Source of the DNA: Candidatus Tayloriibacteriota bacterium
Lineage (GTDB): Bacteria > Patescibacteriota > Minisyncoccia > Phycocordibacterales > SIBU01
Assembly: GCA_009695005.1 (NCBI GenBank)
Contig: SIBU01000007.1
Location: 1 to 44,654 of the forward strand
DNA: 44,654 bases
Direction of reading: 5' to 3'
Part shown: piece after piece, positions 323 through 44,247 of the stretch
Position numbering within the stretch: position 1 is the first letter of the stretch
Layout of the letters: every line of letters starts with the position of its first letter
Notes under the pieces: generated by a model
Seen by the model: the letters and a program-made list of their open reading frames with translations, nothing else
What the model was told of the DNA's origin: nothing
The model's database searches: none
Program-made: the position numbers and the translations under genes

Positions 323-526
323 ATGTCATCAGGTAAAAAACTTGGGGAAAACTTAAGAAAGCTACGATTGAAAAAGAATATGTCGCAAGGAGACCTTGCG
401 ACTGCTTTGAATGTTGATCGAGCGTATATCAGCAACATTGAGAATGGTCGTATGAACCCCACTCTTTCGACTTTGGAAAAGATCGCTAATGCGTTGGGTA
501 TTTCCAGTAGCGAACTTTTGAAATAA
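323..526 (+). CDS. Short XRE-family HTH transcriptional regulator (67 aa); likely start at 323 rather than 209
   Basis: ORF 209..526; MSSGKKLGENLRKLRLKKNMSQGDLATALNVDRAYISNIENGRMNPTLSTLEKIANALGIS is a classic HTH_3 motif; the upstream ORF part lies in repeat/promoter DNA. Confidence 0.85.
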   Translation: MSSGKKLGENLRKLRLKKNMSQGDLATALNVDRAYISNIENGRMNPTLSTLEKIANALGISSSELLK

Positions 527-530
527 ATTT

Positions 531-2057
531 ATGAAAACTATTATATCACTTTTTCAAAAAAATGTTTCTAAAAACCCATCAAAAATTGCACTTGTTTTTG
601 ATGGGACTGAAGTTTTATATTCTGACTTAGAACAAATATCAAATAAATGTGCCGATATACTTAAAAAGTATGTGTCTAAGGGTGATAGAATAGGTATTTG
701 TTTTTCAGAAAATCCACTTGATATTATTGTTAGCATTCTAGCTATATTAAAAATCGGTTGTATATATGTCCCCCTTGATCCCAAAAACCCAATCGAAAGA
801 ATGCAATATTTACTTCAAGCTTCTAAACCTAAAATAATTATCGGTGACAATAATTCTCCCGGGATAATTAAAAATTACGACAGATTCTTTTTTATTAACG
901 ATTTTAAAAATAGTTCTAATAATTCTAGTATTCGTGAACCAACTGAGATCCATGAAAATGATATCGCGTATATAATTTTTACATCTGGATCTACCGGAAT
1001 GCCAAAGGGTGTTTCAGTTTCGCATGGAAATTTAGTCTCAGCATATTTTGCATGGGAAAAATCATATAACTTAAAAGAAATCAAATGTCATTTACAAGTC
1101 GTTGCGTATTCCTTCGATGTTTTTTCAGGTGACTGGATTAGATGTCTCTGTTCTGGTGCTAAATTAGTGATGTGTCCTGAAAGTGTCTCTAAAAATCCAG
1201 AACAACTTTTCAATTTAGTTCAAGATAATAGGGTTGAGTGTGCTGAATTTTTACCTGTCTTACTTAGAGGTTTGTTTGGTTATTTATCTGATAAAAAACA
1301 AAAACTTACCACACTAAAAATCTTAATTTGCGGTTCAGATAAGTTTTTTGTATCTGAATATAACAATTTTATAAATTTTTTATCACCAAATACAAGACTG
1401 ATAAATTCATACGGTACATCTGAAACAACCATTGACACTTCTTATTTTGAATTTACAAAAGAAAACACTTTCCTTCAAAATGAAACGATTCAAGTTCCTA
1501 TTGGTAAGGCGTTTTCAGGAATGGAAATCGTTTTACTGGACAATAACCTTAAAAAAGTTGAGAAGGGCCAGGCCGGAGAAATTTTTATTGGTGGATCTGG
1601 TGTTTCGTTGGGATATATAAATGCTCCCGAACTCAACAAAGAAAAATTTGTAAAAATTAATACCGAAATGTATTTCCGTACAGGAGATTATGGTAAGTAT
1701 TTATCTACCGGCGACATAGAATTTTTAGGAAGAAAAGACAATCAAGTTAAATATAGGGGCAAGCGAATTAGTCTGGCAGAAATTGAAAATGTACTAGTCA
1801 CACATTTTTCTATCTCTGACTCAGCAATTATTTTATTTGAAAATAGTGATCATGAGGATCTAGCGGCTTTTGTGGTTTCAAAGGATAATTCGCAGGAAAG
1901 TTTAAAAAGTACTTTAAAGGAAAACATTTCCAAATATCTACCAGATTATATGTTGCCAGATAGATATTTTTTTGTTGATAAGTTACCGACTAATTTAAAT
2001 GGAAAAGTTGACAAAAAAATATTATTAAATGATTTAATAAATAAAGTTTATGAGTAA
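531..2057 (+). CDS. Stand-alone amino-acid adenylation (AMP-binding) enzyme, NRPS A-domain-like, no carrier domain
   Basis: YIIFTSGSTGMPKGVSVSHGN (A3), NSYGTSETT (A5), YFRTGDYGKY (A7), GRKDNQVKYRGKRISLAEIE (A8), NLNGKVDKK (A10); ends right after A10. Confidence 0.88.
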   Translation: MKTIISLFQKNVSKNPSKIALVFDGTEVLYSDLEQISNKCADILKKYVSKGDRIGICFSENPLDIIVSILAILKIGCIYVPLDPKNPIERMQYLLQASKPKIIIGDNNSPGIIKNYDRFFFINDFKNSSNNSSIREPTEIHENDIAYIIFTSGSTGMPKGVSVSHGNLVSAYFAWEKSYNLKEIKCHLQVVAYSFDVFSGDWIRCLCSGAKLVMCPESVSKNPEQLFNLVQDNRVECAEFLPVLLRGLFGYLSDKKQKLTTLKILICGSDKFFVSEYNNFINFLSPNTRLINSYGTSETTIDTSYFEFTKENTFLQNETIQVPIGKAFSGMEIVLLDNNLKKVEKGQAGEIFIGGSGVSLGYINAPELNKEKFVKINTEMYFRTGDYGKYLSTGDIEFLGRKDNQVKYRGKRISLAEIENVLVTHFSISDSAIILFENSDHEDLAAFVVSKDNSQESLKSTLKENISKYLPDYMLPDRYFFVDKLPTNLNGKVDKKILLNDLINKVYE

Positions 2058-3525
2058 ATCATTATCTAATAATAAAATTGTCGGTATTGTTGGTTTTGGT
2101 GCAGGCGGACTATCGTATCTTGTTCAACTTATAGACTCATGCATAGAAAATAATAAACATGTAGATATCAGTATTTTTGAAAAAAATAAACTCCCTAAAG
2201 GTTTGGCTTATGGTGGTATATCTAATTATCATATTCTTAATTTAAATACTCATGTTATGAGTGTTTCTCACACTAAACCAGACAACTTTTATGAATGGTT
2301 ACAAAAAGAAAAATCTCAGTGGACTAAAAAATATGATGGAATAATTATTGACGATCTATATCCTCCAAGACCTTTGTTCGGTGAATATCTTGAGGATGTT
2401 TTTTTGCAGTACATGAAGATCGCAGAAAAACATAACATTAAGGTTAATATTTATAATACTGAAATTATCGATCTAGCTTTTGTTGAAGAAAATAGAATTA
2501 ATCTTAAAGACAGAAAAAAGACTTATTTTGTAGATACCGTGATGCTTGCTTTAGGTAATTTTGATTCTGATAAATATACTGAATTAAACGACAAAGAGGG
2601 CTACTATAATTCACCTTGGGAAAAATTAAATTTAAAAACCAAAGAACCTGTTGTAATTTTAGGAACAAGACTTACAGCTATTGATACTGCTCTGTACTTG
2701 TTTGGTGAAAAAAAATTTAATAATAAAATATATTTGGTGTCTAGATCAGGTGCACTACCTAAAATAATAGGCCTATCAAAGCCATACTTACTGTCATTTT
2801 TAAATGAAACAAATATTAAAAAAAATAAAAACATAAATTTAGATAAATTGGGTCAATTATTCAAAAAAGAAATTGAAAAAGCCGAGGGGAAAAAATTAGA
2901 CTGGGAAAAAATCATTAATATTGAACCGAGCACACTGGATGCATTAGATGAGGAAATAAAAATTGTTGAGGAAAATAAACTCAGACCATGGCAATCTGTA
3001 TTAATTTCACTGTATCCGCTAGTGCCATGGATATGGAGTTTACTAAAAAATGAAGAGAAGGAAATTTTTATTAAAAAATATTTCAGCTCTTGGCTCACTT
3101 ACCTAGCTGCATTTCCATTAAAAAATGCTAAGAAAATAAAAGGATTCATTGAATCTGGTTCAATTGAAATTGTTGGCGGACTAAAAGAGGTTAAATATAT
3201 AAATGGTAAGTATGTCCTAAGGTTTACCAAAAACAATACTATTGTTACACGCACAGTAATTAATGCTACTGGTTCGGGACATAACTATACTCATTCAAAA
3301 TTGTTGATGAATATGATAGAAGGTAACCTAATAAACCAAAGTAATCTTGGTGCTCTTGATATAGATACAAAAACTTGTCGTCTAATTTTGAACAATCCTT
3401 TTACTAAAAAAGATGTTTTTGCAATTGGCGAGATAACTTTTGGTTCTTGGTTGGCAACAGCAGATCTCGGTCAAATCTCTCGACAGGCTGAGATTGCCAT
3501 TAATGACTTACTAAATAAAATATAG
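2050..3525 (+). CDS. FAD/NAD(P)-binding protein (NAD_binding_9-like flavoprotein)
   Basis: N-terminal GIVGFGAGGLSYLVQL dinucleotide-binding motif, GLAYGG, YPPRPLFGEYL, VINATGSG; 8-bp overlap with the preceding CDS. Confidence 0.75.
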   Translation: MSKSLSNNKIVGIVGFGAGGLSYLVQLIDSCIENNKHVDISIFEKNKLPKGLAYGGISNYHILNLNTHVMSVSHTKPDNFYEWLQKEKSQWTKKYDGIIIDDLYPPRPLFGEYLEDVFLQYMKIAEKHNIKVNIYNTEIIDLAFVEENRINLKDRKKTYFVDTVMLALGNFDSDKYTELNDKEGYYNSPWEKLNLKTKEPVVILGTRLTAIDTALYLFGEKKFNNKIYLVSRSGALPKIIGLSKPYLLSFLNETNIKKNKNINLDKLGQLFKKEIEKAEGKKLDWEKIINIEPSTLDALDEEIKIVEENKLRPWQSVLISLYPLVPWIWSLLKNEEKEIFIKKYFSSWLTYLAAFPLKNAKKIKGFIESGSIEIVGGLKEVKYINGKYVLRFTKNNTIVTRTVINATGSGHNYTHSKLLMNMIEGNLINQSNLGALDIDTKTCRLILNNPFTKKDVFAIGEITFGSWLATADLGQISRQAEIAINDLLNKI

Positions 3526-3527
3526 CT

Positions 3528-4382
3528 ATGCACCCAAAACAAGCCGTAAAAAAAATTTATACTCTAGCAAAGAATCAAGCGGTTTCTTTTTTTGGAAGTA
3601 GACTAATTTCGGTGTATCTGATTGGTAGTTTAGCGCATGGTGGATTTTCTGAAGTATCAAGTGATATCGATATTGCATTTATTTTAGATAACAAAGACAT
3701 ACTAGAAGAAGACTGGGATATGGTTAATAATATCAATAAAGATATAAAAGCTACAGGATTGGAATTTTCAAAAAAACTTTCTATTTTTTGGACTAATGTA
3801 ACTACCATTTCTAATAAAATAACATCTGGAGGATTTCCGCCCCCTACAAAAAAGGATGGTCTTTTTCCACCTTTTGATATTTTAGATTTATACCAAAATG
3901 GAGTTCTAATTTATGGAAAAGATATTAAGTCTAATATTTTAGTTCCCAATGAGGAAAATCTTTTTATTGCCGGTACTGAATTTCTATTAAGTTATGTTGA
4001 TAATAAAAAAAGAAACGAGTGTCTCAGTAATGTGGATATATTTTTAGAGCTTAATCCGGTAGACATATCGAAAAATATTCTTTTCCCTATAAGATTATTA
4101 TTCACATTATTTACAAGTAAAATTGGAAGTAATGGCGACGCGGCTTTGTATTTTCTAAGTAAAAAAGATACATCCGAAAAACTAAAGGAGTTAATTAATC
4201 AGGCTATCTATATTAGAAATAGTGCTCAATATCACACCGAGACTTTAAAAGAACTTTTTCCCAATTTAAACAGTTTATATATAAATTTAATTGATTTACA
4301 CATAAAAAAAATGGAAGAATTGCAAAATTTAACATATGTCCAAATGTTGAAGGATTGGAGGAGTAGAATTTTAATAATTTAA
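3528..4382 (+). CDS. Nucleotidyltransferase-fold protein (MNT/AadA-like)
   Basis: YLIGSLAHGGFSEVSSDIDIAFIL matches the GSxxxG...DxD pol-beta NTase signature; starts 3 nt after the upstream stop. Confidence 0.7.
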   Translation: MHPKQAVKKIYTLAKNQAVSFFGSRLISVYLIGSLAHGGFSEVSSDIDIAFILDNKDILEEDWDMVNNINKDIKATGLEFSKKLSIFWTNVTTISNKITSGGFPPPTKKDGLFPPFDILDLYQNGVLIYGKDIKSNILVPNEENLFIAGTEFLLSYVDNKKRNECLSNVDIFLELNPVDISKNILFPIRLLFTLFTSKIGSNGDAALYFLSKKDTSEKLKELINQAIYIRNSAQYHTETLKELFPNLNSLYINLIDLHIKKMEELQNLTYVQMLKDWRSRILII

Positions 4383-4395
4383 TTATAATCTTAAA

Positions 4396-5334
4396 ATGAA
4401 CGGACGTATGACAACAAAAGAAAACATATACGTAGGTGGCAAAATCTTTTTTCATCTAAAGGATCGCCTTATGGGTGGAAAGGTATTTAGTAGTGATGAT
4501 AAAAGTGAATATTTGAGAACTGCTACTCCTGCTGAGATAGCCGGTGAGGTAAATTTAACGAGGGACTTATACACACGAGGTTTTCCTGTTCCGGAAGTAA
4601 TCACAAGTGGAGAATTAGAAAACGGTATAGCTTATTACACTGAAAAATCAATAGGTTCGAGAGTTTTCGGTGAAATTTTTACAACTGATACAAAAAATAG
4701 TGGTATCGTGAGCGAAGAATCTTTTGATTCATTAGTTCAAACTATAAAAAGATATTGTGAGGCGCAATTTAATCAAAAAAATTTTGTTCCACAAGACAAA
4801 AACACACTTTCTAGTATGGTAGTTTTCGCAGAAGTCATGGAACATCACCCACCCTCATTAGAAATGCAAGGTTTATTCACTGAGGCTTACGAGAAAATAA
4901 GTCAAAAAATTATGTCTCTACCGTGGGGTTACGTTCAGTCTGATTTAAATGCATTTAATATTTTGCCTAATGGTATTATTGATTTTGAATTAGTAGGATT
5001 TGGTCCTATTGGATATGATGTTATTACAAATGTGTATTTTGGTAGAATGTGGCCCAAAAATCGTACCGCGTATATTTTAACAGATGATCAAATATCAAGA
5101 TATGTTTCGGAAGTAGATCAAATAGCACAGAAAAAAAATTTGCCAATTATTAGTTCGTATCTTGATGAATTTCTTGTTTTAAAAGCAATTTGGGCAACAG
5201 GAAAAGCAAAAGGTTCGGATAGCGCTGATTTTTTACAATGGCGTGTCAAAGTGCGAGATTGGTGTATAAAAGAATATTTAAAAGGAAATAAAATTGATAC
5301 GATGCAATTTGAGTATCAAGGAACAAAGGGATAA
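4396..5334 (+). CDS. Aminoglycoside phosphotransferase/choline kinase-fold protein with atypical catalytic loop
   Basis: GYVQSDLNAFNILPNGIIDFELVGFGPIGYDV resembles APH H-G-D-x4-N ... IDF(D/E), but the H is replaced by Q (QSD). Confidence 0.7.
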   Translation: MNGRMTTKENIYVGGKIFFHLKDRLMGGKVFSSDDKSEYLRTATPAEIAGEVNLTRDLYTRGFPVPEVITSGELENGIAYYTEKSIGSRVFGEIFTTDTKNSGIVSEESFDSLVQTIKRYCEAQFNQKNFVPQDKNTLSSMVVFAEVMEHHPPSLEMQGLFTEAYEKISQKIMSLPWGYVQSDLNAFNILPNGIIDFELVGFGPIGYDVITNVYFGRMWPKNRTAYILTDDQISRYVSEVDQIAQKKNLPIISSYLDEFLVLKAIWATGKAKGSDSADFLQWRVKVRDWCIKEYLKGNKIDTMQFEYQGTKG

Positions 5335-5360
5335 ATTCCACATTGTCTTTCTGTATTTGA

Positions 5361-5643
5361 GCCTCGGGCATTTCCGCTAGGGCGTCCGTGACGAAGGGGT
5401 GAGCGCCGTCGTAAGACGGAGGCGCTAACATCTAGCAGCGAAAGCGACAAGGAAAAACTCACTAATGGAAACGAGGAAGGGGGTTGTGCGCCTCCGGTCG
5501 GCCAAGCCCTGTTCTGCTCTGCAGAATGCGCCTTGTTTTACCTAGGAGTCCGTGACGACGGTAAAACAAGGACGCACGAGGCGAGGAGATGCGCCAAACC
5601 TAGACATCTAGGCGCGAGTAGCCCTAGCAGAAATGTCCGAGGC
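5361..5643. ncRNA. Candidate highly structured RNA or DNA element closed by a 23-bp imperfect stem
   Basis: gcctcgggcatttccgctagggc (5361-5383) pairs with gccctagcagaaatgtccgaggc (5621-5643); internal hairpins include ccttgttttacc/ggtaaaacaagg, ccgtc-gtaa-gacgg and ttctgc-tct-gcagaa. Confidence 0.5.
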
Positions 5644-5730
5644 GAATGCCGAGGATGGACCCCTTTAGATCATGACGCAAAAATAGTAGAATGGTAGAGG
5701 CACAATATCGAATTTGTATTTTCAGTTTTT

Positions 5731-5813
5731 TGTCCGCCCCGAATTCCGCCAAAACAAAAAGAGGAACAAATGGAAAATTCCTCCCCAAACCCCTCCTTTT
5801 CCATTTGCGACAT
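5731..5813 (-). repeat. Right copy of ~80-bp inverted repeat
   Basis: Reverse complement matches 185-265 with few mismatches. Confidence 0.85.
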
Positions 5814-5926: not shown

Positions 5927-6014
5927 AACACCGAAGAAAAATGTCCTTTCCTTTTTCAAGAAAAATTTCACCACCGCCACATCAGGAAAGCAAGGAACAT
6001 TTTTCTTCGGTGTT
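5927..6014. repeat. Inverted repeat, 18-bp perfect arms
   Basis: aacaccgaagaaaaatgt (5927-5944) and acatttttcttcggtgtt (5997-6014). Confidence 0.85.
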
Positions 6015-6062
6015 GCCGAGTGAAGCGAGGCAGTGGCGGAACGATTCATTCCACATCGGGAT

Positions 6063-6110
6063 TTTGTTGGAAAAAAGTTCGGATTTTGTTCAAGAGACAC
6101 AGCCAGCAAA
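6063..6110 (+). repeat. Partial direct copy of the 5' part of the left repeat (about 110-155)
   Basis: aaaaagttcggattttgttcaagagacacagccag versus aaaaagttcggattttgttcaggagacacagccac. Confidence 0.8.
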
Positions 6111-6264
6111 AATAAATATCTCCTTCGGCCTATTTTTGCTGAATGTGGGAAGTGAGTGACCGAATTCACTCGCGTCTTGGAATCGAACGCCGGAATATAA
6201 AATTTTCAGGAGAAAATTTTTTGAGGCGGTGACCAGACAAACATGAACGACGGTAAATATTTAG

Positions 6265-6480
6265 TCGAGGGAGATAAGTGTACTCACGGTCCAAATCCCG
6301 CAGCCAGTTTGAGCAATCAACTAATTCTAGTACTAGATTGAACGGAGAAGCTATTGAAAACTCTAGCCTTTTTCCATTTACTGTCGGGTTCTGAAGTACG
6401 TAATCCAAAAATTCACGTTTTCCTGCAATATCAGAACTATTCTCAAAAATAGTCTTTGCTCTACGTGCTACAGAAAGCAC
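6265..6480 (-). pseudogene. C-terminal remnant of a large serine recombinase
   Basis: AKTIFENSSDIAGKREFLDYVLQNPTVNGKRLEFSIASPFNLVLE...WLRDLDRE resembles the C-terminus of the intact recombinase at 42619..44247 (AREAFVSGDLDTKKEILSALGQNYTLKDRKLVILPNEWLKPI...RGWPDLNR). Confidence 0.5.
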
Positions 6481-6721
6481 TGTTACAAGAGTTGTTCAAT
6501 AGTCATGGTCTGGCTTTCTATGTTCAGACATTTCAATTTCCAAAGTTTGTGTTTGATACTGATACTCTTAATGTTCTTTGACGTAGACTGCCAGAGTAAT
6601 TCACACTACTCGATTTTTTATTCGGTGTAAGAGGATCTGGAAGGATTGCTCACGGGATTCGAGGATGAGAAAATTTTCGACTCATATGTAAGGCCTTCTC
6701 GTGTTATAGTAGAACGTATTT

Positions 6722-8500
6722 ATGAAAAATATCCTGAACAGTCCTGTAGTATATCTGTGGCGCAAAATGTATTTTTATGCTGAACATAGGCGTAAGAATA
6801 TAATAGGAGCAACTACTCTATTTATTTTCGCGAACATAGCTGATGCGGCTCAACCGCTTTTTTTTGGATATTTTTTAAATTACATTCAGGAAAATGGAAT
6901 AACAAAGGAAAATCTAACACACTTATTCTTGATACTATTGCTCTTTCTTGCATCGGAAGTTATTTTTTGGATATTTTGGGCACCGGCTAGAATTATTGAG
7001 CAAGAAACAGCTTTCGCAACAAAGAAAAATTACAAAGAGTACCTACTGCACGGAACGATGGCCTTGCCCCTTTCTTGGCATACTGATCATCATTCAGGAA
7101 ATACGATAGATAAAATCGAAAAAGGTACGAATGCTATATTTTCTTTCTCTGAGGAAACTTTTATGTTCATACAAGCATTTGTTCGGTTAGTTATTTCTCT
7201 TGGAGCATTAATATATTTGGACTTATACGCTTCCTTAATGGTAATAATAGTATCTGCCTTTATTTTTTACATAATGTTTATTTACGACAAACAATTAATA
7301 CCTGGATACAGTGTGGTTAATAGCATGGAAAATAAAATATCAGCAAAAGTTTATGACGTGATTAGCAACATTACGACGGTCATTATACTGCGCATAGAGC
7401 ATCTTGTTTTTAAAGCCATCAGCAAGTCTATTGATACACCATTTTCGCAGTTTAGAAAAAATATTATAAATAATGAAATGAAATGGGTTTGGGCAGCCAC
7501 CTTAGGACAGCTTTCGGTTATTTTAACAATAGGAATTTATCTTTTTACCAACGTAAGTAAAGGAAATGTCATTTTAATCGGTTCTATTTATATATTATAT
7601 AGCTATGCTTCGAAAGTCAGGGAAACATTTTTTAGCTTCGCTCAACTTTATAACAATGCTGTAAAATGGCGATCTAACATCTCAAACGCTGAAGAAATAT
7701 CAGCGGACTTTATGAATATAGCATTATTAGAAAATAGGTATTTGCCAAAAAATTGGTCTACAATTTCTATTAAAAATTTATCTTTTTCCTATCACAACGA
7801 AACCGATGCTGATCTGCATCTAGACAATGTAAATATTGATTTTAAAAAGGGCGATAAAATTGCGGTAATTGGTGAAAGTGGTGGTGGAAAAACTACCTTC
7901 TTAAAAATCTTTCGTGGGCTTTATCTTCCAAAAAGAATAATTCTTTGTGTTGACGATAAAGAATGTGGAAATGATTTAAATATAATAAGTGATTCTATTT
8001 CTTTGATACCACAAGATCCAGAAATTTTTTCTACAACAATTCGAGAGAATATTACGCTTGGTGTGGATTACGAAGATAGGGAGATAAAAAAATTCACTAA
8101 CATGGCTTCATTCACAGAAGTAGTTTCCCGGTTGCCTAAAGGTTTAGAATCCAACATCGTAGAAAAGGGAGTCAATTTAAGCGGAGGTGAGAAACAACGT
8201 CTAGCACTTACGCGTGGGCTTCTAGCTTCTAAAGACAAAGACATTATTCTTTTAGACGAACCAACAAGTAGTGTGGATTTTCATAACGAACTTAAAATAT
8301 ATGAAAATATATTTACAAGTCTGCCAGATAAGACTATTATTTCCTCTATTCACAGACTGCATTTACTTTCACTTTTCGATCATATTTTCTTTTTCAAAGA
8401 TGGCAAAATAGTCGCCAAAGGGAATCTTGATCAGCTAAAAGAAAAATCAAAAGATTTCAAAAAACTCTGGGCAAAATATATAAAAACTCAAAATCAATAA
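6722..8500 (+). CDS. ABC transporter, fused permease and ATP-binding protein (MsbA/exporter type)
   Basis: N-terminal TM helices; Walker A GESGGGKTT, LSGGEKQRLALTRGLL signature, IILLDEPTSSVD Walker B. Confidence 0.92.
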   Translation: MKNILNSPVVYLWRKMYFYAEHRRKNIIGATTLFIFANIADAAQPLFFGYFLNYIQENGITKENLTHLFLILLLFLASEVIFWIFWAPARIIEQETAFATKKNYKEYLLHGTMALPLSWHTDHHSGNTIDKIEKGTNAIFSFSEETFMFIQAFVRLVISLGALIYLDLYASLMVIIVSAFIFYIMFIYDKQLIPGYSVVNSMENKISAKVYDVISNITTVIILRIEHLVFKAISKSIDTPFSQFRKNIINNEMKWVWAATLGQLSVILTIGIYLFTNVSKGNVILIGSIYILYSYASKVRETFFSFAQLYNNAVKWRSNISNAEEISADFMNIALLENRYLPKNWSTISIKNLSFSYHNETDADLHLDNVNIDFKKGDKIAVIGESGGGKTTFLKIFRGLYLPKRIILCVDDKECGNDLNIISDSISLIPQDPEIFSTTIRENITLGVDYEDREIKKFTNMASFTEVVSRLPKGLESNIVEKGVNLSGGEKQRLALTRGLLASKDKDIILLDEPTSSVDFHNELKIYENIFTSLPDKTIISSIHRLHLLSLFDHIFFFKDGKIVAKGNLDQLKEKSKDFKKLWAKYIKTQNQ

Positions 8501-42618: not shown

Positions 42619-44247
42619 ATGAATAAAGAAAACGAAAAAATTAAATATTTTCTCTACGTTCGCAAATCAAGCGAGGGAGAAGAAAGACAGGTCCAATCAA
42701 TTCCCGACCAGACAGACCGCTTGACCAAACTCGCGGAGGAAATGAAGTTTGAAATTGTAGAAATACTCCCTGAATCAAAATCGGCCAAGAATCCAAATAA
42801 CCGACCCGTGTTTGATAAAATGCTTGAACGCATTGAGAACGGTGAAGCAGACGGTATCCTCTGCTGGGAAATCAATCGCCTTTCGCGCAATCCCGTTGAT
42901 AGTGGAAAAATACAGTGGCTACTTCAACAGAGCGTCATTAAAATCATACGGACTATAAACCGCGAATACAGACCAGATGATAATGCCCTGCTCTTGAGTG
43001 TTGAGAGCGGGTCAGCTAATCAATTTATTTTGGACTTAAAGAAAGGAGTAAAGCGAGGTATTGATAGCAAACTAGTGAAAGGTATGGCTCCTATACTAGC
43101 TCCACTTGGCTACCTAAACACTAAAACAGAAACACGGGGCGAAAACTACATTGTAAAAGACCCAGAACGCTTCCCTATCATCCGCAAGATGTGGGACCTT
43201 ATGCTTTCTGGAAACTATACCCCTCCCAAGATACGCGACATTGCGAATGACGAATGGGGTTTACGGACACGCAAGACGAAACGTAAAGGAGGAAAACCAA
43301 TCTCCCGAAGCACTATTTATCGCATCTTCACCGACCCTTTCTATGTTGGACTTTTTGAATATGGTGGCAGAACCCATCAAGGCACACACGAACCGATGGT
43401 TACATTTGAGGAATATGACAGAGTACAAATTATGCTCGGAAGAGAAGGCAAACCACGCCCTAAAACGCATCATTTTGCTTTTACAGGCATGATTCGGTGC
43501 GGAGAGTGTGGATGTGCTATTACCGCCATTGAAAAGCCAAAAATCATTAAAGCGACAGGAAAACTGAAAAACTTTACTTACTATTTCTGTACTCGTAAGA
43601 AAAATGGAGTGCCCTGTTCGCAAAATAAATACCTTTCATCCGAGATGCTGGAAGAACAGATTGAATCCGAACTCGGCAACATCACTATTTTGCCAGAATT
43701 CAAAGATTGGGCATTAACAATCTTGCGGGAAAACAATGATAACGAAATTACAGAGCGAACGGCCGTGTACGAAAACCAACACAAAACTTTGACTGCTACG
43801 CAACGGCAATTAGATGCACTCACAAAAATGCGCTACAGTGAGCTCATAAGCGATGAGGAGTTTGTAAAAGAGCGTAAGAGCCTACAAAACCAAATTGCGG
43901 TCCTCACAGAGCGTGTGCGGTCAACAGAAGTACGCGCCGTCAACTGGCTTGAACTTACAGAAAAGACTTTTGAGTTTGCTTGCCACGCGCGGGAGGCATT
44001 TGTGAGCGGCGACCTCGATACTAAAAAAGAGATACTGTCGGCACTTGGTCAGAACTACACGCTCAAGGACCGAAAACTCGTTATCTTGCCTAACGAATGG
44101 CTAAAACCCATCATTGAACGCTATCCTGCGATGGAAAAAGAATATAATCGGTTAGAACTGACGAAATACAAAGACCCACAAAGACGAAAGGAGGCTTTCG
44201 CCTCCTTAAGTCCCATCTTGCGCGGCTGGCCGGATTTGAACCGGTGA
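42619..44247 (+). CDS. Large serine recombinase (resolvase, recombinase and zinc-ribbon domains)
   Basis: YFLYVRKSSEGEERQVQSIPDQ, DGILCWEINRLSRNP, IRCGECGCAITA...YFCTRKKNGVPC, coiled coil; ends RGWPDLNR across a tRNA 3' end. Confidence 0.95.
   Translation: MNKENEKIKYFLYVRKSSEGEERQVQSIPDQTDRLTKLAEEMKFEIVEILPESKSAKNPNNRPVFDKMLERIENGEADGILCWEINRLSRNPVDSGKIQWLLQQSVIKIIRTINREYRPDDNALLLSVESGSANQFILDLKKGVKRGIDSKLVKGMAPILAPLGYLNTKTETRGENYIVKDPERFPIIRKMWDLMLSGNYTPPKIRDIANDEWGLRTRKTKRKGGKPISRSTIYRIFTDPFYVGLFEYGGRTHQGTHEPMVTFEEYDRVQIMLGREGKPRPKTHHFAFTGMIRCGECGCAITAIEKPKIIKATGKLKNFTYYFCTRKKNGVPCSQNKYLSSEMLEEQIESELGNITILPEFKDWALTILRENNDNEITERTAVYENQHKTLTATQRQLDALTKMRYSELISDEEFVKERKSLQNQIAVLTERVRSTEVRAVNWLELTEKTFEFACHAREAFVSGDLDTKKEILSALGQNYTLKDRKLVILPNEWLKPIIERYPAMEKEYNRLELTKYKDPQRRKEAFASLSPILRGWPDLNR

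Follow-up and report, generated by a model that had tools for sequence, protein, structure and literature searches.

A repeat-bracketed five-gene operon with a predicted ornithine-specific adenylation domain in a Candidatus Tayloriibacteriota genome: a possible carrier-protein-independent pathway

Ornithine-activating adenylation domains (A-domains) are known from nonribosomal peptide synthetases (NRPSs), as in Streptomyces albus, whose domain displays the specificity code DVGEIGSIDK (PMC3992020), while a stand-alone amino-acid A-domain, acting with a carrier protein, is found in the lincosamide synthetase LmbC/CcbC (PMC4351081). Amide bond synthetases that work without a carrier also exist, namely McbA, NovL and CouL (PMC6282839), and NAD_binding_9 enzymes of the FzmM/CreE type provide nitrosuccinate to N-N bond pathways (PMC10404684). 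The locus described here is a compact cassette of five genes (323-5334, + strand) in a Candidatus Tayloriibacteriota bacterium, located on contig SIBU01000007.1 (contig C16), the 44,654 nucleotides of which constitute the analysed window, in a genome assembly of 793,660 bases, 24 contigs and 89% completeness. Our preferred reading, put forward tentatively and at somewhat less than even confidence, is that of a horizontally acquired, repeat-bracketed operon for a carrier-protein-independent ornithine pathway yielding an N-oxygenated or a cyclised/ligated product.

As shown by an open reading frame (ORF) check, the five co-directional ORFs lie exactly where the initial annotation, made from the sequence alone, had placed them, with intergenic gaps of 4, -8, 2 and 13 bp. 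They encode, all on the + strand, an XRE/HTH_3 regulator of 67 aa starting at ATG 323 (323-526; HTH_3, 73 bits), a stand-alone NRPS-type A-domain of 508 aa with a predicted specificity for L-ornithine (531-2057), an NAD_binding_9 flavoprotein of 491 aa with an FzmM/SidA-like N-monooxygenase fold (2050-3525), an MNT-fold nucleotidyltransferase (NTase) of 284 aa, loosely ANT/AadA-like (3528-4382), and an APH/choline-kinase-like phosphotransferase of 312 aa (4396-5334). The families suggested in that annotation, i.e. AMP-binding, NAD_binding_9 (PF13454), NTP_transf_2 and APH, were all above cut-off or matched in profile searches, the Pfam/NCBIfam support being strong for the XRE protein, the A-domain and the flavoprotein, moderate for APH and weak for the NTase. 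Neither a carrier nor a condensation domain is present among the five genes, which bears out the earlier description of a stand-alone amino-acid A-domain lacking such partners. As a whole, four long enzyme ORFs that overlap or abut, share a low G+C content at third codon positions (GC3) and are bracketed by repeats are more than a chance arrangement.

The A-domain scored 217 bits against AMP-binding and 41 bits against AMP-binding_C, and its TIGR01733 (AA-adenyl-dom) score of 325.8 vs. a cut-off of 317.4 identifies it as an NRPS amino-acid adenylation domain. Core motifs A3, A5, A7, A8 and A10 are intact, including the A10 lysine, and Asp235 is present. The pocket, read by alignment on the GrsA/1AMU numbering and checked against the PDB chain, consists of D235, V236, G239, E278, I299, G301, S322, I330, D331 and K517, which is the S. 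albus code given above. Positions 299/301 are I/G by the standard ungapped placement and L/C by MAFFT, the other eight being unaffected, and in the raw MAFFT placement eight of the ten residues agree with the ornithine code; L-ornithine is therefore the predicted substrate. The closest A-domains are those of cyanobacterial NRPSs (40-42% identity), whose pocket is identical except for position 299 in two out of three, whereas identity to A-domains elsewhere in the class or phylum is just 25-32%, consistent with an acquisition from outside the group.

Compared with the NRPS ornithine domains, with which it shares the ten-residue pocket and all core motifs, the cassette enzyme stands alone, without thiolation, condensation or thioesterase domains and with no carrier detectable in the genome. 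Like LmbC/CcbC, it is a stand-alone amino-acid A-domain in what would be a small-molecule pathway, but the carrier protein and the amino-sugar/mycothiol steps of the lincosamide system are absent from the cassette. As for McbA, NovL and CouL, they are likewise ANL-superfamily enzymes without carrier or condensation domain, a mode of action that may apply to the cassette A-domain, although they are aryl-acid activators and belong to other ANL subfamilies.

No match to the carrier domain PP-binding (PF00550) or to the phosphopantetheinyl transferase (PPTase) family PF01648 was found in the 0.79-Mb assembly, while 11 and 10 of the 14 genomes, respectively, gave control matches. PF00550 gave nothing above cut-off in three genomes of the same genus either. 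Other genomes of the class do show an A-domain with a carrier and AcpS, so that the test can detect them: the A-domain adjoins a carrier (25 bits) and AcpS (67 bits) in genome G796 and AcpS in G835, and G973 encodes an adenylation-thiolation-condensation (A-T-C) protein. The initial annotation had proposed that the activated acid is probably passed to a small acceptor, and this idea gains strength from the lack of PF00550 and PF01648 matches in the assembly. Concerning these other loci themselves, those of G835 (L081, C4 9202-11039) and G796 (L082, C14 1581-3629), with their dedicated AcpS and, in L082, the carrier, appear by sequence look to lie in surface-polysaccharide or sugar clusters, and that of G973 (L084, C3 7515-10628) is a 1037-aa A-T-C NRPS in a genome of about 0.9 Mb.

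The second enzyme, the flavoprotein, matched NAD_binding_9 with 102 bits and has both dinucleotide motifs intact. When an AF2 model derived from eight related sequences (pLDDT 76.6) was compared with the PDB, the top fold match was the aspartate N-hydroxylase FzmM (E 2e-23, TM 0.77), followed by SsDesB, PvdA, KtzI, SidA and DfoA, with thioredoxin-reductase-like proteins ranking below; the model thus matches a set of N-hydroxylases of amino acids or diamines. FzmM, itself a PF13454 member, was also recovered at 4.5e-16 by a profile of eight flavoprotein relatives. The NAD_binding_9 domain, the class-B fold and the two dinucleotide-binding domains are all found in the cassette protein, where the flavin-stacking aromatic Trp51 of FzmM corresponds to Tyr54, and its mobile, possibly catalytic Asn62 to Asn64, invariant among the relatives. 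Conversely, the Asp-binding Arg13 and Arg577 of FzmM are replaced by Gly19 and Gln475, and Arg276 and Arg416 of the same cluster are not alignable. Sequence and model together support an N-monooxygenase-type scaffold, which sharpens the earlier, broader assignment as oxidoreductase-like, and the loss of Arg13 and Arg577 suggests that the substrate is probably not aspartate. Since the same operon is predicted to activate ornithine, we infer that ornithine or one of its derivatives would be the most economical substrate for the flavoprotein.

The cassette protein and FzmM/CreE share, besides the Pfam family, the best fold match and the flavin-site aromatic and Asn, a helical insertion between the dinucleotide domains, whereas they differ in length (about 110 residues fewer in the cassette protein), in the two missing substrate-binding arginines and in the partner, an ornithine-type A-domain instead of a nitrosuccinate lyase. 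The ornithine/lysine N5/N6-hydroxylases PvdA, SidA, KtzI and DesB resemble it in model fold and presumed reaction type but belong to another Pfam family (PF13434) and have only 10-16% sequence identity; one relative of the flavoprotein scored 18.1 on PF13434 vs. a cut-off of 21.3. The closest sequence relatives (27-29%) come from Alteromonas, Pseudoalteromonas, Cedecea, Marinobacter, Litchfieldella and Thioclava and belong to an operon of another kind, a conserved proteobacterial one with the order TetR, HPP, 4-OT-like, cupin, CoA-transferase-like and flavoprotein genes (L032-L037, L041 and L003). A further PF13454 flavoprotein was seen in an apparent biosynthetic cluster on a plasmid of Streptomyces sp. 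NBC_00435 (1-13428, L031), next to an adenylate-forming enzyme, a 4-hydroxyphenylacetate 3-hydroxylase-like protein and chorismate-pathway genes. Another is present in the 163-kb unannotated record OR844993.1 (Staphylococcus phage SA 1306 Kay), perhaps as host DNA.

The last two enzymes were assigned with less precision. For the NTase, NTP_transf_2 gave a weak 22.7 vs. a cut-off of 21, with the GSx11DxD site intact (residues 33-48), and an AadA_C-type protein from the same order matches residues 1-56 with 41% identity; the AadA_C domain itself was not detected in the NTase at E up to 5, and the ANT_9 model scored 22 bits vs. a cut-off of 340. Its AF2 model, made from the single sequence (pLDDT 46), was not used. 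The APH-like protein scored 34.4 against Pfam APH (cut-off 23.2) and has the catalytic residues D183, N188 and D196 in a motif QxDxxxxN...DFE, where D, N and DFE are kept and Gln replaces the usual His of HxDxxxxN; its relatives on Streptomyces plasmids are 26% identical. By family, both proteins would act on small molecules. They share catalytic folds and motifs with the antibiotic-modifying ANT (AadA/ANT9) and APH enzymes, but genes 4 and 5 fall below all named-family cut-offs, and gene 4 is devoid of AadA_C. On a Streptomyces anulatus plasmid (8127-11903, L007), a histidine phosphatase, an unknown protein, an APH-like kinase and an overlapping NTP_transf_2 gene stand in a row, a pairing reminiscent of that of the cassette. 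The Streptomyces plasmid NTase beside the APH homologue could not be aligned by BLAST with the cassette NTase and was not retained as its relative, and a comparison with the LicA/LicC-type kinase/cytidylyltransferase pair was also dropped because LicC does not have an MNT fold.

The five genes, together with a structured element described below, are exactly enclosed by the two arms of an 81-bp inverted repeat, the left one at 186-266 and the right one at 5731-5811, which are 99% complementary and have no third copy elsewhere in the assembly. GC3 ranges from 0.211 to 0.224 in the cassette genes vs. 0.256 to 0.379 in 14 neighbouring genes (about 0.33), every one of which lies above the cassette genes (Mann-Whitney p = 3e-4). 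Directly beyond the right arm, on the - strand, a large serine recombinase has left a 3' remnant (6166-6516), which over 65 aa is 63% identical to the C-terminal end of one from a genome of the same genus (G512, L023). Neither a transposase within the inverted repeats nor a second copy of the cassette was seen in the assembly. The best reading of these features is that of a horizontally acquired, mobile-type segment. The gene set of the initial annotation stands; what it had missed are the bracketing repeats, the foreign composition and a palindromic operator.

Upstream of the XRE gene, the sequence TGCA-N6-TGCA-N4-TGCA-N6-TGCA (271-302), with perfectly symmetric half-site positions, constitutes a putative XRE operator. 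It has no mismatch in its 16 fixed bases, and shuffling gave 0.12 sites expected in the window with up to three mismatches, both values referring to a pattern that was defined after sight of the site. Overlapping this operator, a consensus scan indicated a putative sigma-70-type promoter, TTGCAA-17-TATTAT (288-316, + strand), with 6 nt separating it from the XRE ATG; the operon transcript is probably leaderless. Such consensus sites numbered 18 in the region vs. 26.8 expected, so that the promoter is weak taken alone and its position is the argument. According to PADLOC, the XRE protein resembles the control proteins of restriction-modification systems, and autoregulation of the operon through the four half-sites, as in those proteins, may be envisaged.

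The pathway could then run as follows. The A-domain would convert L-ornithine, or N5-hydroxy-L-ornithine, into the acyl-AMP, while the flavoprotein, as a class-B FAD/NADPH N-monooxygenase, would hydroxylate that substrate on one of its amino nitrogens. In the absence of a thiolation partner, an amine or a hydroxylamine would capture the acyl-AMP directly. This could be its own delta-N, giving the six-membered ornithine lactam or a cyclic hydroxamate (3-amino-1-hydroxy-2-piperidone), or else a small acceptor, in the manner of amide bond synthetases of the McbA/NovL type. The NTase and the APH-like kinase may add nucleotidyl and/or phosphoryl groups to the product or to the acceptor, for tailoring or self-protection, with the XRE protein adjusting the expression of its own operon. 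The secondary-metabolite, signal or self-immunity roles envisaged in the initial annotation would be conceivable. A stronger version, in which the cassette is a complete and self-contained carrier-free pathway on a mobile segment and a cyclic hydroxamate or another N-oxygenated ornithine derivative, made by the A-domain and the PF13454 N-monooxygenase, is both nucleotidylated and phosphorylated to give a chelator, signal or antimicrobial, appears rather unlikely. Gene order, families, motifs, pocket residues and fold match, the repeats, the foreign composition and the lack of a detectable carrier or PPTase were directly observed, while we infer from them the substrate, the order of the steps, the carrier-free capture, the product and what the last two enzymes do.

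The distribution of the cassette is that of a singleton. In searches of 380 phylum and 397 order genomes (379 and 396 others), the flavoprotein was found in its own genome only, and no orthologue of the NTase was present in 297 order genomes. The phylum-mates are of 0.5-1.4 Mb and mostly near-complete. Plasmid, phage and viral-contig collections held no close relatives: tblastn of the NTase against plasmids returned nothing, and in viral contigs no relatives came from single-protein scans with the flavoprotein or the NTase, nor from alignment scans with the APH-like protein and the flavoprotein (a five-sequence flavoprotein alignment being too divergent for scanning). Four other genomes possess an above-cut-off A-domain, each in different gene company, in the partly overlapping sets of 380 phylum and 384 class genomes. 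A recurrence of the ordered gene set, named in the initial annotation as a check on its proposal, was thus not found in the genomes searched, and no matching characterised cluster was found. The five-gene set appears new, each enzyme class being already known. Another A-domain mini-cassette was observed in two genomes of different families (L075, G356:C19 3354-7521; L083, G839:C23 4349-9934), with an unassigned protein of about 230 aa, methyltransferase-like by eye, the A-domain and pyridoxal-phosphate oxoamine-synthase-like enzymes, to which that of G356 adds a formyltransferase, a PNP_UDP_1 (nucleosidase-like) protein and serine recombinases; G356 has no PP-binding domain.

Several points weigh against the carrier-free ornithine pathway. 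As a singleton, the cassette offers no evidence of co-evolution, and co-occurrence therefore cannot back a single four-enzyme pathway. The flavoprotein has no match to Lys_Orn_oxgnase (PF13434) up to E = 1, its fold match to FzmM in part reflects shared family membership, PF13454 includes many proteins without assigned activity, and the TetR-HPP-4-OT-like-cupin-CoA-transferase operon of its relatives has no A-domain. The NTase and APH assignments are weak, and with 89% completeness a carrier or PPTase could sit in the missing 11%. This last point leads to one of the three main rivals, the other two being a resistance cassette and a passenger island. The cassette could be a fragment of a carrier-dependent NRPS or siderophore-like pathway, whose carrier would either be encoded where the assembly has gaps or come from a host or partner, as the NRPS subfamily of the A-domain, its closeness to multimodular cyanobacterial NRPSs, the class genomes in which an A-domain accompanies AcpS and a carrier or is part of an A-T-C NRPS, and a contig that begins 186 bp left of the repeat, cutting off the left neighbourhood, would all suggest. 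We regard this as improbable given the PF00550 and PF01648 results in the assembly and in the same-genus genomes, and because the cassette is delimited on either side by the inverted repeats, with no carrier inside. The enzymes might otherwise be carried together for antibiotic modification (aminoacylation, oxidation, nucleotidylation and phosphorylation) rather than for one pathway. The ANT and APH folds, the AadA_C-like NTase N-terminus and the mobile-element hallmarks (inverted repeats and serine-recombinase remnant) speak for it, and genomes of the candidate phyla radiation reportedly often carry resistance genes, to judge from the title of a reference cited in PMC9927545. Nevertheless, neither the NTase nor the APH-like protein reaches any named resistance model, and the operon is tight, with overlaps. 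In addition, two of the four enzyme genes encode a specific amino-acid A-domain and an N-monooxygenase-like protein, neither of which is known from resistance cassettes, and such a cassette is unlikely, if slightly less so than the carrier-dependent fragment.

Singleton distribution and foreign composition would equally fit a recently acquired, non-functional passenger, i.e. a chance transfer caught before decay, but the five ORFs are intact with complete catalytic motifs, and an elaborate promoter/operator has been kept despite strong genome size reduction, which makes this reading a little more improbable than the carrier-dependent one. Far lower stands an N-N bond or nitro/nitroso pathway, where an FzmM/CreE-like flavoprotein would over-oxidise an amine and the ANL enzyme would form an N-N or diazo product: FzmM is the nearest solved structure and such enzymes supply nitrosuccinate (PMC10404684), yet we rank this pathway low, as Arg13 and Arg577 of the Asp-binding site are not conserved and no nitrosuccinate-lyase (aspartase/fumarase-type) gene is present in the cassette, while the A-domain has Asp235 and the pocket of alpha-amino-acid activators. 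Least probable of all is a signal or defence module with XRE-controlled small-molecule synthesis or MNT-type nucleotidylation, to which the control-protein-type XRE regulator and a match of the NTase N-terminus to PADLOC PDC-S09 (31 bits) might point; PADLOC found no defence system, the A-domain, the flavoprotein and the APH-like protein match none of its models, and the cassette encodes neither an effector nor a nuclease or pore protein.

Ultra-small bacteria are generally regarded as stripped of almost all luxury metabolism. If the carrier-free ornithine pathway holds true, a specialised metabolite would be possible with very few genes, from an NRPS-type activation with no detectable carrier or PPTase. 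PF13454 N-monooxygenases would then reach beyond aspartate, with an ornithine-directed activity entering the FzmM family, and the carrier-free amide-synthetase mode would extend to NRPS-type A-domains.

Between the last gene and the right arm, a GC-rich element with a strong multibranched long-stem fold was found at 5345-5650. The 356-nt fold at 5345-5700 reaches -150.6 kcal/mol (z -5.7), with none of 100 shuffles equally good. The element corresponds to no Rfam family and is not repeated in the assembly; the sole Rfam match, that of a miRNA model with a hairpin at 5927-6014, was rejected as fortuitous. As for the serine-recombinase remnant, the intact serine recombinase at 42619-44247 was tested and is not its source. 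A dispersed repeat of about 98 nt (6179-6276) adjoins the recombinase 3' end, with three copies at 80-84% in the same-genus genome G512 and pieces elsewhere; being common to genomes of the genus, it indicates that the contig belongs to this genus. The window also has the bacterial features FtsEX, the sigma-70-like promoter and a serine recombinase. Beyond both inverted-repeat arms, a 46-nt direct repeat (89%) is present at 104-149 and 6060-6105. Finally, an ABC exporter with a moderately low GC3 (0.278) is encoded at 6722-8500, downstream of the cassette and outside the repeats, and might conceivably export the cassette product.

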